Below are positions 52,946 through 58,783 of a stretch of DNA of 64,000 bases, in pieces. The DNA comes from Rheinheimera sp. 1928-s. Its GTDB lineage: Bacteria; Pseudomonadota; Gammaproteobacteria; Enterobacterales; Alteromonadaceae. Position numbers and translations under genes: made by a program. How positions within the stretch are numbered: position 1 is the first letter of the stretch; each line of letters starts with the position of its first letter. The DNA lies in the NCBI RefSeq assembly GCF_029269265.1, contig NZ_JARIXP010000008.1, forward strand, positions 62,001-126,000, read 5' to 3'. The notes below the pieces were generated by a model. The model had not been told where the DNA came from, did not search any database, and worked only from the letters and a program-made list of their open reading frames with translations.

Positions 52946-53613
52946 TCATTAGCGTAAGTGCGACGTTTCTGCAAAATATCCTTGATTTGATCCACCGTGG
53001 TATCGTCATTGCAGGATGTGCCTGCAAATAACCATAGTGCATTTTTACCTGCATCAGGAGGCGGCACTCTCCAACACACCCCATGCGCATTAATCAACGA
53101 ACTGCCGTCGGTAAAGGCTTTTACTGGTTTAAACATATCAGGCGCCAGATCAGTATCGACCGGATTGATGGATCTGACCACCACTTCACGTTGTTGGTTC
53201 CACTCTGTCATTGGCTCTGAGGCTTTAGCCGTCACAGAAGCAAGTGCGCGATCAGCCAGCGACATAGGGCCCGCCGCTTCGGTTGGTTTTGACTCACGCA
53301 TTTCTGCATAGGCTGTGGCTTCAAGGGCTGATTTTAGTTCAGCAGCCGGAGTCACTGCTGTGGTTTCAGAAGTTTTGGCCTTGCTAACGGCCGTATTTTT
53401 TTTAGCTGGAAGCACAGATTGTGGTGTTTTGTTTTTAATGATCACTTGCTGTTCAGCAACAATGGCTGGCGCTGGTTTCGCCCGAATTGCAGTGTAACTG
53501 TAACTTTGAATAACAGTTGAAGCTGAGGGCTTTTCAGGCGTTGGGATCACCACAAAGGAGAGCGCCCACAGCAATAAAGCATGAACGACAATAGAAAATA
53601 TCCATATCTTCAC
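52942..53613 (-). CDS. Membrane-anchored Ala/Pro-rich hypothetical protein
   Basis: A 223-residue protein with one N-terminal membrane helix (about 3-24), a long Ala/Lys/Thr-rich periplasmic linker (about 40-130) and a C-terminal folded part with two Cys (HGVCWRVPP and GTSCNDD). The N-terminus resembles TonB-like anchors, but no TonB C-terminal motif is seen. Its stop overlaps the barA stop by 4 bp on the other strand. Confidence 0.75.
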   Translation of the reverse strand: MKIWIFSIVVHALLLWALSFVVIPTPEKPSASTVIQSYSYTAIRAKPAPAIVAEQQVIIKNKTPQSVLPAKKNTAVSKAKTSETTAVTPAAELKSALEATAYAEMRESKPTEAAGPMSLADRALASVTAKASEPMTEWNQQREVVVRSINPVDTDLAPDMFKPVKAFTDGSSLINAHGVCWRVPPPDAGKNALWLFAGTSCNDDTTVDQIKDILQKRRTYAND

Positions 53614-53709
53614 AACAGCACTCCAATGTCAGGCTGAGGTTTCTGACATCGGAGTAACTCAAAGATTCAATAAGCCTGGCAAAAATCACCAACTAAGGTA
53701 TTGATAGTA

Positions 53710-55461
53710 TTAACCTTGGAAGAACTGGACTTTGTTACGCCCTTGCTGTTTCGCCTGGTACATGGCGGTGTCGGCATCTTCAATCAGCTTGGTAAAATGA
53801 TAACCGGATATTTGCGCTGAAGTGACACCAAAACTGGCGCTTAACTGAAACTCATAACCCGAAACGGCGGTATCTATATTGCTGATCGCATCCCGACAAA
53901 TATCGGCCAGCAAGTGCGCTTTATCGCTTTGGCAGCCCGGTAATAAAATGGCAAATTCTTCCCCGCCAATACGGCCAAATACGTCGTTATTGCGCATAAA
54001 ATTGCGACAGGTATCCACAGTCTGACGTAAAGCCCAGTCGCCTGCCGCATGACCATACTGGTCGTTAATTTGCTTAAAATGGTCCAAATCAAACACTATA
54101 AGGGCGGCAGGTAATTGGCCCTTTTCGCATAAAGCCAACGCTTCTTTGGCTGAAGCTGAAAAGTGATATCTGTTGCTGATTGCCGTTAAATCATCGTATT
54201 CAGCCAAAGCTTTAAAGCGCTGACGGGCGACAAAACTGCGGTAAGCCATAAAGGCAAGGCCCAGCACCAGCGCCACTAAAGCAACAATCAACAGTTTGTT
54301 AAAGGTAGCCTGATGTTTCAGTGCTGTTTGTTCGTACTGCAGCAACTGATTGTCTTTATCCAGCAACGCAATTTTTTGATTTTGAGCCAGAATTTCTGAG
54401 TGAGCTGTGTGATAAGCCATTTGTTGTGCTGACTTATCATCCATATAAGCAGTGAAAGCTGCGGTATATTGTTCGTGATATTCCAAGGCTTGCTGATAGT
54501 CTTTTTCAGTTTTGGCAATTTGATGTAATACCGCAAATGTTTCCGCCGCGACTAAGCTGGATCTGTCTTGTTTTAAAGCATCAGTAACTTTTATCGCATG
54601 TTCTTTTGCTAAATCAACCTGACCAAGACCGTAGTAAGCTTGCGCAAGCACACTATCAAATTTCAGTATTAATGAATAATAGCGGGTAGATTCAACCTGG
54701 TTATTATGAGACAGCAGCAAGCTGATCGCACCTTGATAATCGTTCAGGTCTATCTTGTGTCTGGCGATAAGGGCCACGATGATATTTGCCCATAAAGGTT
54801 CATTGCGTTCTGTGCAGTAGGTCAGACCTTCCGCAGATTTCAACTGAAAATCATCTGTACGACCAGACAGATACAGCGCTTCAGCTCTCAACTGATGCGC
54901 GGCGCATACCGCATTTGAACTGGGCTTTTCATTAATTAGCTGATCGATATAACTTAATGACAAATCATATTTGCCTATCAGGTTGTACATCAGAGCGATC
55001 ACCCTCATCCCCTGCTCACGGGCTTCCGGCTGAGAGACCATATCCAGCTGGATGATGAGTTGTTCAAGGTACACAAAGGCATCAAGATAGCGACGCACCA
55101 ACACCAAACTATTGATGGCCAGAGCTTTTGCTCTGAACGAAATAACTGTATCTGCCTGTTCAATCAGTGGCATCAAAATGCTCAGAGCTTGCTGAGTATT
55201 GCCCTCATACACTGCACTGTATGCTTTCAGCAGCGTTAAATACTCTTGCTCAAAGCCTGACAGTTGATTTTCGTCAGCCGTCAGCTCATTCAGCTTTACG
55301 GAAAACTCTTGAAAATCACTGCTTTTAATTCTGTCTAAATACAACAGTTTATCAACCCACACTGTGGCGAGGACAGGTGTAGAAAAACAAGCAAACAGAA
55401 GCGGCAGCAGAAAAAGCCGCACACCTCTGATAAACCTGGGGTTGATTGTTAAAAACAACAT
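53710..55461 (-). CDS. TPR-containing membrane diguanylate cyclase
   Basis: A 583-residue protein with a signal or anchor segment (about 14-33), a periplasmic array of TPR-like helices (about 60-330), a coiled coil, a membrane helix (about 390-411) and a GGDEF domain with GGEEF at 499-503. An RxxD inhibitory site (RNND) lies five residues before it, so the enzyme should be active and product-inhibited. Its ATG directly follows the stop codon of the precursor-like gene at 55462, so it is probably translated with it. Confidence 0.92.
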   Translation of the reverse strand: MLFLTINPRFIRGVRLFLLPLLFACFSTPVLATVWVDKLLYLDRIKSSDFQEFSVKLNELTADENQLSGFEQEYLTLLKAYSAVYEGNTQQALSILMPLIEQADTVISFRAKALAINSLVLVRRYLDAFVYLEQLIIQLDMVSQPEAREQGMRVIALMYNLIGKYDLSLSYIDQLINEKPSSNAVCAAHQLRAEALYLSGRTDDFQLKSAEGLTYCTERNEPLWANIIVALIARHKIDLNDYQGAISLLLSHNNQVESTRYYSLILKFDSVLAQAYYGLGQVDLAKEHAIKVTDALKQDRSSLVAAETFAVLHQIAKTEKDYQQALEYHEQYTAAFTAYMDDKSAQQMAYHTAHSEILAQNQKIALLDKDNQLLQYEQTALKHQATFNKLLIVALVALVLGLAFMAYRSFVARQRFKALAEYDDLTAISNRYHFSASAKEALALCEKGQLPAALIVFDLDHFKQINDQYGHAAGDWALRQTVDTCRNFMRNNDVFGRIGGEEFAILLPGCQSDKAHLLADICRDAISNIDTAVSGYEFQLSASFGVTSAQISGYHFTKLIEDADTAMYQAKQQGRNKVQFFQG

Positions 55462-55737
55462 TTATCCAACTTTCAAAAAGCTGATTTTCTCTGTTTCTGG
55501 CTCTTGCTCCGGCTCTGCCGGTTCATCACCATCTGGTTGATCTGCTGGATGCACACCACAAACAACATTAGTACGGGCTCCTAACATTTGCTCTAAGGCT
55601 TGCTGGTCTCCACTGATTACCGCTGCTACAAGCATAGGATCGGTGTCCGCCATTAACTCTGCTAATTGCTCTGCATTAGCGTAACGTAACTCTGAGCTTT
55701 GACCCATTTTTTCTAATAACTGAATAACAACTGACAT
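55462..55737 (-). CDS. Putative borosin precursor peptide 2
   Basis: A 91-residue protein, paralogous to the one at 57253. Shared features in order are MSxVIxLLEKMGQ and LRYA (helical, 1-20), a DP-x-LxAAxxxG segment (33-43), LGARTNVVCGV at 52-62, an acidic linker (66-83) and a KVG end. The helical half fits the small borosin-binding domain of split-borosin precursors, and the LGARTNVVCGV block is the candidate core. The ribosome site AGGGAG is strong. The stop abuts the GGDEF gene start. Methylation is inferred, not shown. Confidence 0.75.
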   Translation of the reverse strand: MSVVIQLLEKMGQSSELRYANAEQLAELMADTDPMLVAAVISGDQQALEQMLGARTNVVCGVHPADQPDGDEPAEPEQEPETEKISFLKVG

Positions 55738-55835
55738 AGTAACTCCCTGACTTTACGAGAAAGATCTGCAGTATGTCGCAGACAGGCTCAACAACCGAAT
55801 CCACTGTAAAACGATAAAATTAAAAGCACAAGGGA

Positions 55836-55851
55836 AGCAGGTCTTCCTGCT
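55836..55851 (-). terminator. Hairpin downstream of the acetyltransferase gene
   Basis: Stem AGCAGG/CCTGCT with a 4-base loop. On the minus strand it is followed by a T-rich stretch. It separates the methyltransferase-GNAT pair from precursor 2 and may be a weak terminator. Confidence 0.5.
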
Positions 55852-55877
55852 GAAAATAGCTATAAAGATACTTTGAC

Positions 55878-56396
55878 TCAGTCTGGTGTATACCAGTATC
55901 TGTCATACTGAGCGGGGTCAGCACTATAACCAGCAGCAATGTTCGAGCGGACTGCGGCCCTGTTGTCCGGGTTAGTCTGAGTCCATATCTTCACGCCAGT
56001 GAACACTTGGTGCACTCGTTGACTGAACGCCAATTTAGCCTCTGTGCCATACCCCAGACCTTGCCAGTGAGGTAATAACATCAAGCCCACTTCAGCCGTG
56101 GCCGCCTCAGATTGCCACTGATTGACCGCACATAAACCTATAGGGTGGCCATCACGGCATATCGCCAGAAACAAACGCTTAAAAGGTTTTTTTGCATTGA
56201 GACGTAGCGCAATTTGAAAGCTATTTTTGGCTTTTTCTGTATCAAGGGGCGGACCAATAAAGGCCATCACTTCAGCGCTGGTGTATAAATCCAGATACAA
56301 CTGCTGGTCTTGTGGCATAAAAGGCCGGATTAACAAACGGGCTGTTTGGATCACAAAGTGATCTGCAACAGCAGCTTTAGCCCAGTCAGCTGTCAT
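55878..56396 (-). CDS. GNAT family N-acetyltransferase
   Basis: A 172-residue protein of the RimJ/RimL-like GNAT group. It starts with a TARLLIRPF strand near residue 18 and has the acetyl-CoA binding segment LLPHWQGLGYGTEAK near 107-121. Its ATG overlaps the methyltransferase stop (ATGA), so the two are coupled. Acetylation of a peptide N-terminus or of the matured product is a plausible role; the substrate is unknown. Confidence 0.88.
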   Translation of the reverse strand: MTADWAKAAVADHFVIQTARLLIRPFMPQDQQLYLDLYTSAEVMAFIGPPLDTEKAKNSFQIALRLNAKKPFKRLFLAICRDGHPIGLCAVNQWQSEAATAEVGLMLLPHWQGLGYGTEAKLAFSQRVHQVFTGVKIWTQTNPDNRAAVRSNIAAGYSADPAQYDRYWYTPD

Positions 56397-57187
56397 ACCT
56401 GACCTTCTTGCGCCACCACAGCTTTTAACTTATCCAGAATAACCTGATTGGCTTTGGCTACAGTAGCCGGAGGTATCACTAAAGTGGTTTTTAAATCCAT
56501 TTGGGCTTTAGGTAATTCAGACAACGCCAAACGTTCGATACGAGGTTGTTGAATAGGTAAAGTGACGGCTTCGTATAAAATCACCTGATGCTCCAGCGGG
56601 TACCATTGGCTTAGCAGCTCCACTAATACGTCACGATAAGCGCTGCCTGTGGTGAATTTAGCCAACGACTTATCACCAGCTACGCCAATCTGCCATAAAA
56701 TCAGATAAGCGGCAGTGTCTATAGTGCGCTGATAAAACATCAGATTGCTGGCTTCATAATGCTGGCAACCATAAGTGCCGGGGTCTAAGCCTAAATCGGC
56801 ATATAAACAGTCTTCAGCAGAAATACCCGGCTCCATATGGGCCCTATAGCCTTCAGCTGTAGCTTCTTTAATGGCCTGATGCGGCACCCAGGCAAACACG
56901 CCGGGATGGCCATAAAAAGCACCACAAACTTTTTTGCCTGCATGTACTTCAGCCAGCATAGCAGCGACCATTTGTTTATAGGTGATCATACGGGACTGGC
57001 CTTCAGAATAATAAGGCTGCAGGCTTCGCACATCGGCATTCATGCCCTGGATCCAGAGCTCAGTAGTGCCATCAGCCACCAATACAAAAACCACATCAGC
57101 TTGTTCTATATAACTGCGGGATAAAGGACTGATATGAGAGCCCAAAGTCATACCAGTGCCTACACAAACCAAACTACCTTTTTGCAT
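56393..57187 (-). CDS. Split-borosin alpha-N-methyltransferase (SAM/tetrapyrrole methylase fold)
   Basis: A 264-residue stand-alone enzyme; ATG 57187 has AGGAGA upstream. Motifs match borosin N-methyltransferases: GSLVCVGTGM (4-13), PYYSEGQSRMITYKQM (58-73), FYGHPGVF (91-98) and AHMEPGISAEDCLYADLGLDP (116-136). By my alignment from memory Tyr60, Arg66, Tyr70 and Tyr92 fall at OphMA positions Tyr66, Arg72, Tyr76 and Tyr98. There is no fused precursor, so this is the split form as in Shewanella SonM. Expected reaction: SAM-dependent methylation of backbone amides in a precursor peptide. Confidence 0.9.
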   Translation of the reverse strand: MQKGSLVCVGTGMTLGSHISPLSRSYIEQADVVFVLVADGTTELWIQGMNADVRSLQPYYSEGQSRMITYKQMVAAMLAEVHAGKKVCGAFYGHPGVFAWVPHQAIKEATAEGYRAHMEPGISAEDCLYADLGLDPGTYGCQHYEASNLMFYQRTIDTAAYLILWQIGVAGDKSLAKFTTGSAYRDVLVELLSQWYPLEHQVILYEAVTLPIQQPRIERLALSELPKAQMDLKTTLVIPPATVAKANQVILDKLKAVVAQEGQV

Positions 57188-57221
57188 TGATTTCTCCTGC
57201 TGCCACAATCACAGTTGCGAA

Positions 57222-57243
57222 AAAGCTGCCCTCAGGCAGCTTT
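57222..57243 (-). terminator. Attenuator-like hairpin between precursor 1 and methyltransferase
   Basis: A perfect 9-bp stem (AAAGCTGCC/GGCAGCTTT, loop of four) followed on the minus strand by further T residues, 10 bp after the precursor stop. Partial read-through would yield more precursor than enzyme, a common RiPP arrangement. Confidence 0.8.
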
Positions 57244-57252
57244 GATACCAGA

Positions 57253-57489
57253 TTAGCCAACTTTGGCCAATGATGTAATTTCTTCCTGCTCGTCAGTTTC
57301 TTCAGCAGCGTAAACACCACAAACTACATTAGTGCGGGCGCCTAAAACTGCAGCCAGTTGCTCCTGAGAGCCAGCCAGAATAGCAGCGGCTAAAGCCGGG
57401 TCTAACTCTGCTGTCACTGTAGTTTTATCGGCATAACGTAAATTGGCGTCTTGGCCCATTTTTTCCAATAAGCTGATCACTGTAGACAT
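57253..57489 (-). CDS. Putative borosin precursor peptide 1
   Basis: A 78-residue protein. ATG 57489 has AGGA at good spacing; an in-frame ATG at 57516 would add nine residues. It has a helical N-terminal part (VISLLEKMGQDANLRYA at 4-20, then a DPALAAAILAG helix), the block LGARTNVVCGV at 49-59, an acidic stretch (62-70) and a KVG end. It is the nearest upstream neighbour of the methyltransferase, which supports it as the main substrate. The core boundary and the methylated residues cannot be read from sequence. Confidence 0.8.
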   Translation of the reverse strand: MSTVISLLEKMGQDANLRYADKTTVTAELDPALAAAILAGSQEQLAAVLGARTNVVCGVYAAEETDEQEEITSLAKVG

Positions 57490-57617
57490 TTGAATTTCCT
57501 TAATAAATAAGCTCATTACGGGGCATAAATAACATAGCCCGTTCAGGCAACAATAATGTGCCCGTTTCGATACTAACGCTGAGTTTGTACTTTTGACCAG
57601 TTTTATTATGTCTGGTA

Positions 57618-57656
57618 GAAGCGCAGCTTTATCCCCGCCCGCAAAGCTGCAGCTTC
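57618..57656 (-). terminator. Hairpin after acpS
   Basis: GAAGCGCAGCTTT pairs with AAAGCTGCAGCTTC apart from one bulged base, enclosing a C-rich loop, 18 bp beyond the acpS stop. No T-run follows, so termination strength is uncertain. It separates the housekeeping operon from the borosin-like cluster. Confidence 0.6.
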
Positions 57657-57674
57657 AAGTACTAAGGGGATTAA

Positions 57675-58052
57675 TCAGGATTCTAAAATAACTGTCGCAC
57701 AAGCATAAGCCTGTTCGTCGCTGATGGAGAGCCAGACCGAACGCACTTGCATTGAATCGGCCAGCTCTTTGGCCGGGCCTGTGAGTTCAAGTTGAGGGCG
57801 ACCTGAAGGGTCGTTGCTGACAATAAAATGTTGGAAGGAGATACCACGGCCTATGCCGGTGCCAAGCGCTTTAGCTGCGGCTTCTTTGGCGGCAAAACGT
57901 TTGGCGAAATAACGGGCTGGCTGGCCATGAGCAGCTAAGATGTGCTGCTCAGATTCAGTGAGTACCCTTTGTACTAAACGGGGCGAGCGCGTCAGGCTTT
58001 GCTCTATACGCGCAATTTCGATGATGTCGGTGCCTAAACCAACAATAGCCAT
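57675..58052 (-). CDS. acpS: Holo-[acyl-carrier-protein] synthase
   Basis: Transfers 4'-phosphopantetheine from CoA to ACP. The 125-residue protein has the AcpS motifs GLGTDIIEIARIE at the start (metal-binding Asp) and FAKRFAAKEAAAKALGTG near residue 49-66. Its ATG overlaps the pdxJ stop by one base, as in the E. coli pdxJ-acpS order. Confidence 0.96.
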   Translation of the reverse strand: MAIVGLGTDIIEIARIEQSLTRSPRLVQRVLTESEQHILAAHGQPARYFAKRFAAKEAAAKALGTGIGRGISFQHFIVSNDPSGRPQLELTGPAKELADSMQVRSVWLSISDEQAYACATVILES

Positions 58053-58783
58053 TAACGGCGCGCCTCCACCATCAGACGTTTCATTTCAGCCACAGCAGGG
58101 CCTAAACCAGAAAAGATGGCGCGGGCAACAATAGCATGACCAATATTCAGCTCGTACATCTCTGGAATAGCTGCTATAGGCTGCACGTTATGGTAATGCA
58201 GGCCGTGACCAGCATTGACTGTTAAACCCAAGGAAGCGGCATAAGCCGCGGCTTCTGTGATGCGCGCCAATTCTGCCTTTTGCTTTTTCGGATCCGTCGC
58301 TTCAGCATATTGGCCTGTATGAATTTCAATATAAGGTGCACCAGCTTTAGCCGCTGCTGCTATTTGTTTTTCATCGGCGTCGATAAACAACGAGACTAAA
58401 ATATTGTCCTGCTGTAGGCGTAATACTGCATCCTGAATTTTATCGAACTGGCCTGCTACTTCCAAACCGCCTTCTGTGGTCAGTTCCTGGCGTTTTTCCG
58501 GCACTAAACAGCAGAATTCAGGTTTTAACTGAGCGGCAATACCTAACATTTCTTCAGTCACAGCCATTTCAAAATTTAAACGAGTAGCGATGGTTTGGCG
58601 CAACACAAATAAATCGCGGTCCTGAATATGGCGGCGGTCTTCACGTAAATGCACAGTGATACCATCAGCGCCAAATTGCTCAGCCAATAAGGCAGCATGC
58701 ACAGGTTCAGGGTAATAAGTGCCACGGGCCTGACGTAAAGTGGCAACGTGATCGATATTGATACCTAAATAAATGGCGCTCAT
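58052..58783 (-). CDS. pdxJ: Pyridoxine 5'-phosphate synthase
   Basis: Condenses 1-deoxyxylulose-5-phosphate with 3-amino-2-oxopropyl phosphate to pyridoxine phosphate. The 243-residue TIM barrel has [15 protein letters not shown] at the start, [13 protein letters not shown] near 40, a catalytic-type Glu in EMAVTEEM near 73 and [13 protein letters not shown] near 186. It lies in the recO-pdxJ-acpS string. Confidence 0.97.

Follow-up and report, generated by a model that had tools for sequence, protein, structure and literature searches.

On the minus strand of a contig of Rheinheimera sp. 1928-s, we identified a cassette that we read, with a probability of roughly 0.6, as a type IV split-borosin system of the SonM/SonA kind coupled to its own receptor, with methylation, processing, export and binding all inferred. 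The arrangement suggests that a peptide, whose backbone is probably methylated (an inference in itself), may be a signal read by the adjoining membrane sensor; in many bacteria, peptide genes of this kind stand paired with such a sensor. It is this adjoining TPR-GGDEF receptor that makes the locus interesting.

The cassette, its methyltransferase and its precursors

Within the window, by which we mean the whole 64,000-nucleotide stretch of DNA that was analysed, the cassette genes occur on the minus strand in the order A1, M, GNAT, A2, D:

57253..57489, minus strand: A1, first precursor peptide, 78 aa, open reading frame
57222..57243, minus strand: terminator-like 9-bp hairpin between A1 and M, with a 3' arm continuing into five U
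56393..57187, minus strand: M, SonM-type borosin alpha-N-methyltransferase by homology, 264 aa, open reading frame with ATG start
55878..56396, minus strand: GNAT acetyltransferase, possible tailoring enzyme (PF13302, E 2.3e-18)
55462..55737, minus strand: A2, second precursor peptide, 91 aa, with the same LGARTNVVCGV as A1 and a different leader and tail
53710..55461, minus strand: D, putative receptor, 583 aa, with signal peptide or anchor, TPR-type sensor, TM helix and GGEEF

The initial annotation had paired an enzyme with an upstream peptide, which stands for the methylase and the 78-residue reading frame, but it missed A2, the GNAT gene and the adjacent TPR-GGDEF protein D. By open reading frame analysis, A1 lies 65 nt upstream of M, whose start could alternatively be placed at 57208 with an upstream TTG; the GNAT start overlaps the M stop by 4 nt, and the first base of D directly follows the A2 stop codon. 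The hairpin has a minimum free energy of -16.2, against -10.6 for shuffled sequences (z -2.3; 6 of 200 shuffles equally good), and is a possible attenuator that would yield more A1 than M. A pattern scan of 53500-57800 reported no terminator-like site between A1 and M, this hairpin being absent from its output, and returned 3 promoter-like sites versus 6.9 by chance and 11 terminator-like sites versus 4.2. No Rfam match was found in 53000-58100.

The AcpS, PdxJ and Era proteins flanking the cassette share 98-99% identity with those of R. soli BD-d46 (L005), and M is present at E <= 1e-40 in 21 of 22 genus genomes, the window's own genome counted. In the named-genome set, for which 98 loci passed and the best 80 of 98 were used, only 9 loci have the acpS neighbour of the window, so the cassette stays intact at different genomic sites. 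Among nine named loci sharing the window's gene context, A1 is present in L004, L008 and L010 only; A1 is an accessory precursor. A foreign origin of the cassette was rejected on composition, the GC content of 45.6% against 46.7% for the window giving no signal.

By homology, M is a SonM-type split-borosin N-methyltransferase, methylation itself being inferred, and we hold with high confidence that the locus belongs with the borosins. The 264-residue minus-strand reading frame carries GSLVCVGTG, PYYSEGQSRMITYKQM, FYGHPGVF and PGISAEDCLYADL, as the initial annotation described. Its assignment of the enzyme to the split borosins, and nearer to OphMA than to cobalamin or siroheme methylases, is borne out by the comparison with SonM and OphMA that it had proposed. 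In a search of the PDB, M matched SonM at E 1.9e-84 and fungal OphMA at E 1e-49; a precorrin-2 methylase (E 0.77) was the only tetrapyrrole methylase among the matches listed, and clustering with CobA, CbiF or RsmI was not observed. M and SonM are identical at 140 of 252 aligned residues and fall in one clade of the M tree. The SonM residues Y58, R67 and Y71, to which the mechanism given in PMC8429565 assigns stabilisation of the amide, correspond to Y60, R66 and Y70 of the window M, and this Tyr/Arg/Tyr set is kept in 81 of 81 aligned M (window and best 80 of 98 loci).

Pfam assigns M to TP_methylase only (E 1.1e-17), and NCBIfam gives matches to YabN (4.3e-11) and precorrin-3B methylase (0.011), both weak and far under the family cut-offs; on these rests the alternative of a common tetrapyrrole or rRNA methylase, akin to CobA, CbiF or RsmI, beside small reading frames that have nothing to do with it. 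We find this hardly tenable: SonM and OphMA match more than 45 orders of magnitude better than the only listed tetrapyrrole methylase, PDB scores on which we rejected this reading, while the catalytic set is retained and conserved SonA-like precursors adjoin M. The gene is the single one of its kind in the genome, the next match (E 0.011) being a short stretch with two stops.

The 78-residue peptide with a small helical domain that had been noticed upstream of the methylase is A1 (reading frame 57253-57489), in which AlphaFold places five helices up to modelled residue 47, the remainder being disordered (mean pLDDT 74). It comprises a five-helix borosin binding domain at about residues 3-48, a linker and core, ARTNVVCGVYAAEE, and an acidic tail. 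An iterative profile search of the window and the best 80 of 98 loci yielded 103 precursor-like reading frames. When a profile of 62 precursors was compared with the PDB, SonA came out on top (E 3.5e-6 over the binding domain; next, unrelated match 0.37), and relatives occur beside M at 77 of the best 80 of 98 loci, in agreement with the earlier view of A1 as a precursor of the SonA kind. SonA was not found by single-sequence phmmer with A1 alone, and Foldseek of the A1 model ranked SonA first with a non-significant E of 7. A SonA-like binding domain in A1 is also inferred because the five-helix model matches the domain described for SonA, which has five helices (PMC8429565).

The previously proposed core, LGARTNVVCGV, is present at A1 residues 49-59. 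Its first two residues, 'LG', align with the final part of the binding domain, which makes a core start near A51 more likely, and the core is not unique. The stretch is identical in A1 and A2 with 4 of 33 nucleotides differing, all synonymously, a pattern that looks more like purifying selection than recent copying. No precursor beyond A1 and A2 was found elsewhere in the 4.64-Mb assembly (third match E 0.75). Among the receptor-paired precursors of the window and the best 80 of 98 loci, the core cysteine occupies the same column in 70 of 81, a proline occurs shortly after that column in 79 of 81, the core run is hydrophobic and the tail averages 38% Asp/Glu.

Precursor tails at L051:7363-7848 and L058:7416-7892 are long, Lys-rich and repetitive, the usual tail being acidic. 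A precursor-like gene at L034:7145-7622 lies in two reading frames and is apparently broken. A single M is accompanied by up to five precursor reading frames or several A-D units at L150:6988-9213, L046:6802-10906 and L143.

The sensor and its pairing with the cassette

D comprises an N-terminal signal peptide or anchor, a sensor of some 350 aa at about residues 31-380, a single TM helix at 390-406 and then a GGEEF domain, with the sensor predicted to lie in the periplasm. The diguanylate cyclase domain (PF00990, E 2.2e-43) has an intact GGEEF signature and RNND at the RxxD I-site. In the AlphaFold model (mean pLDDT 92.5), TPR-type helix hairpins extend to about residue 320 and are followed by one long helix that spans the membrane and leads into the GGDEF domain. 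Pfam recognises TPRs in related proteins but none in the D of the window. The 50 Foldseek matches listed for D are GGDEF-domain proteins throughout, which leaves the AlphaFold model, the helix pattern and the TPR matches of relatives as the grounds for a TPR fold. Sensor cysteines C186 and C216, on neighbouring predicted helices, are invariant in 81 of 81 D (window and best 80 of 98 loci), and a cysteine pair 30-35 residues apart is found in all three SonM-type D too; judging from the model, C186 and C216 possibly form a disulfide. No second copy of the sensor was found in the window's genome at E <= 0.01.

Among the best 80 of 98 loci, 78 have a D-type sensor gene that begins, on the strand of M, no more than 5 kb from the M start; both loci without one stop at a contig edge right after M. 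A precursor lies near M at 77 of these best 80 of 98, L075 having D and no recognised precursor, and a GNAT gene at 64 (39 after M, 25 before). With the window included, there are 86 full-length D, and for 81 of them a precursor gene stops between -58 and +56 nt relative to the start of D; the five without a precursor directly upstream are the second D of L025, the first of L034, the second of L043 and of L044, and that of L075. Loci of SonM orthologues (68-74% identical to SonM) likewise have a precursor and a TPR-GGDEF gene in 3 of 3 Shewanella genomes, S. oneidensis not among them, and the same three genomes carry a window-type M as a second system.

The converse was addressed in 370 gammaproteobacterial genomes, where M occurs in 11, the precursor in 4 (all M-positive) and a D-type sensor in 7, that is, in 5 of 11 M-positive versus 2 of 359 M-negative genomes (Fisher p 1.7e-7), the last two by weak matches (E about 2e-11). 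At six of six distant M among the 11 (28-42% identical), sensor and recognised precursor were absent, so the receptor link is confined to the SonM-like clade and does not extend to all borosins. In a tree of 98 M, receptors occur throughout that clade except at L124, whose very long branch (3.13) arises within the receptor clade and whose position is unsure. The expectation of a dedicated, co-inherited signal gene and sensor gene is met.

Within the window's family, M was found in 80 of 196 genomes, at 95 places, of which our survey covers 66 in 64 regions (M identity 39-66%; three repeat named loci). A TPR-sensor protein is encoded no more than 2.2 kb from M in all 64 family loci, on the same strand in 63 and divergently in L149. 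The sensor output is GGDEF in 47 of the 64 and a hybrid histidine kinase in 17. A precursor was recognised at E <= 0.01 in 49 of 64, including 9 of the 17 kinase loci, and none was recognised in the other 8 with E up to 0.01; GNAT is near M in 32 of 64 loci and in 0 of 17 with a kinase receptor. Pfam applied to seven kinase receptors gave TPR (partly below cut-off), HisKA, HATPase and receiver domains. Three further examples lie beside M and a SonA-like precursor:

L120:5477-8446, minus strand: TPR sensor-hybrid histidine kinase
L121:4254-7346, minus strand: TPR sensor-hybrid histidine kinase
L122:5871-9128, plus strand: TPR sensor-hybrid histidine kinase

L120 holds the kinase version together with a GGDEF version in one locus. 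By inspection, all 20 kinase receptors (the 17 and those of L120-L122) are hydrophobic at the N-terminus and again in a segment that begins at 384-417, and 17 of 20 pass a scripted criterion for the same topology; they resemble D in hydrophobic N-terminus and TM spacing. Kinase and GGDEF outputs form large groups in the tree of 98 M, the output having switched once or twice only. Because sensors of this kind are joined to a histidine kinase in relatives, peptide and sensor are the constant elements and the output is not. That the output was exchanged while sensor and precursor were kept is the strongest reason to regard peptide and sensor as partners.

Proposed maturation, divergence and competing explanations

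The methylated peptide is most likely the ligand of the D-type sensor, binding being inferred. By sequence, A1 and A2 are separate precursors, each with a five-helix leader like the one that SonA uses to bind SonM. M would methylate backbone amides in the VVCGVY stretch, where G58 and Y60 of A1 would be the first candidates if the register follows SonA L63/I65, and GNAT may acetylate the peptide. Leader and acidic tail would then be cut off, here by an unlinked protease and in Shewanella relatives perhaps by a cassette-encoded pepsin. The methylated peptide, presumed protease-resistant and more membrane-permeable, would arrive in the periplasm and bind the TPR sensor of D, altering c-di-GMP synthesis in the producer and its neighbours.

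A protease of pepsin family A1 was found in 38 of 157 loci (with L049/L130, L054/L133 and L059/L135 as repeat pairs), on the same strand, in most cases immediately before GNAT or M; that of L144 matches PF00026 at E 2.3e-21. Examples are:

L144:4258-5694: pepsin gene
L057:3595-5364: pepsin gene
L133:4766-6085: pepsin gene

Pepsins occur in 26 of 196 family genomes, all 26 with M and 25 within 6.4 kb of it; in G429, pepsin and M are on different contigs. None was found in 116 M-negative family genomes at the thresholds used (Fisher p 4e-12), and none in the window's host at E <= 1 with the query that recovered 26 other genomes. By family-level sequence assignment, the cassette pepsins belong to the family of the shewasins, which are active and mainly cytoplasmic according to PMC4814920, and we regard them as a candidate maturation protease for the precursor. 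At L049, L130 and G381:C10:69237-69729, the pepsin gene is in broken pieces, and the second borosin cassette next to it is otherwise intact.

Signal core and sensor were not found to diverge in step across the window and the best 80 of 98 loci. With M and GGDEF accounted for, core and sensor distances gave a partial r of -0.06 (416 of 500 permutations as high); core distance follows that of GGDEF (0.40, 0/500) and of M (0.25, 0/500). This is not as a simple core-receptor match predicts. After the same correction for M and GGDEF, leader distance does follow that of the sensor (partial r 0.32, 0 of 500 permutations), and a 68-row non-redundant set gave the same picture. A-D pairs move together in 9 of 9 comparisons with a clear sensor signal, from 21 among seven two-unit loci, a result that rests on two lineages only and is not independent. 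Sensor divergence between paralogous D with similar GGDEF domains was dropped as evidence, because unlinked loci behave alike.

Given a core that does not track the sensor and a leader that does, it is a live rival that the complete precursor or its helical leader, and not a small released peptide, acts on the receptor, with methylation tuning the precursor; the absence of a pepsin from the window's host points the same way. We nevertheless judge it quite unlikely: the leader is homologous to the SonM-binding domain of SonA and by inspection has no signal peptide, whereas the sensor is predicted to lie outside the inner membrane, and the two genes, being neighbours, may correlate because they are inherited together.

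The lack of co-divergence between core and sensor could also be accommodated if the split borosin had another product role, antimicrobial or in metal or redox chemistry, and the TPR-GGDEF protein or kinase merely timed the cassette while sensing something unrelated. Consistent with this, the 14 neighbour clusters found most widely across 81 loci (window and best 80 of 98) include no exporter, and the conserved core cysteine (70/81 in the same set) could be chemically active. Such a role appears unlikely to us, as this genome has one copy of the sensor and genomes without M seldom have any (2/359, weak), a precursor directly adjoins the receptor gene for 81 of 86 D (window and best 80 of 98 loci) and is duplicated jointly with it, and a mere regulator need not retain its sensor while exchanging its output.

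We keep to a methylated peptide as ligand of D, against which stand the independence of core distance from sensor distance, the lack of an exporter among the most widespread neighbours, a host without pepsin, some loci where no precursor was recognised and the few output changes. As a wider claim, SonM-kind borosins may be widespread gammaproteobacterial signals with a periplasmic TPR receptor, a c-di-GMP or phosphorelay output and, in Shewanella and other Alteromonadales, maturation by pepsins; this we advance only tentatively, at somewhat less than even odds.

Relation to known systems

Type IV split borosins are already known. A GGDEF partner of borosins may already be in print too, because a figure legend on borosin architectures in PMC11395268 includes a 'GGDEF-sequence-containing domain'; the legend does not state the borosin type or the role of the GGDEF component. 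The histidine-kinase version, the receptor idea and the c-di-GMP link of borosins were not met in a literature search limited to listings and abstract openings. Neither the quantified receptor pairing nor the pepsin link was met in the literature searched, and no paper found there had borosin and c-di-GMP together.

In Miller et al., the role of borosins is left open, and a constant sensor-like partner turns it into a testable question: does the peptide bind the TPR domain and alter c-di-GMP? If our reading is true, a modified ribosomal peptide would serve as a signal in Gram-negative bacteria and feed a second messenger or phosphorelay, and bacterial pepsins, of which activity and a mainly cytoplasmic location are described in PMC4814920, would gain a plausible job.

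The closest known system is SonM/SonA of Shewanella oneidensis, which (PMC8429565) shares with the window a stand-alone methyltransferase (SonM, 263 aa) with the same catalytic residues and a separate precursor of about 75 aa that resembles A1 in its five-helix binding domain. SonM and SonA assemble as a dimer of heterodimers. SonM orthologues in the three Shewanella genomes further resemble the window in having a precursor and, directly downstream, a TPR-GGDEF gene. The window M comes from a lineage paralogous to that of SonM, with which it shares about 55% identity, and its cassette differs in the GNAT gene, the two precursors and a VVCGVY core replacing that of SonA.

OphMA and other fungal borosins have a methyltransferase domain homologous to the window M (E 1e-49), but in the OphMA type enzyme and precursor are fused in one protein, whereas here they are separate. 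In Gram-positive quorum sensing, the TPR receptors of the RRNPP family are cytoplasmic and read re-imported peptides. D is like them in that a TPR domain is proposed to read a short peptide from a neighbouring gene; it is unlike them in that this domain is predicted to be periplasmic, anchored to the membrane and joined to a GGDEF or kinase output.
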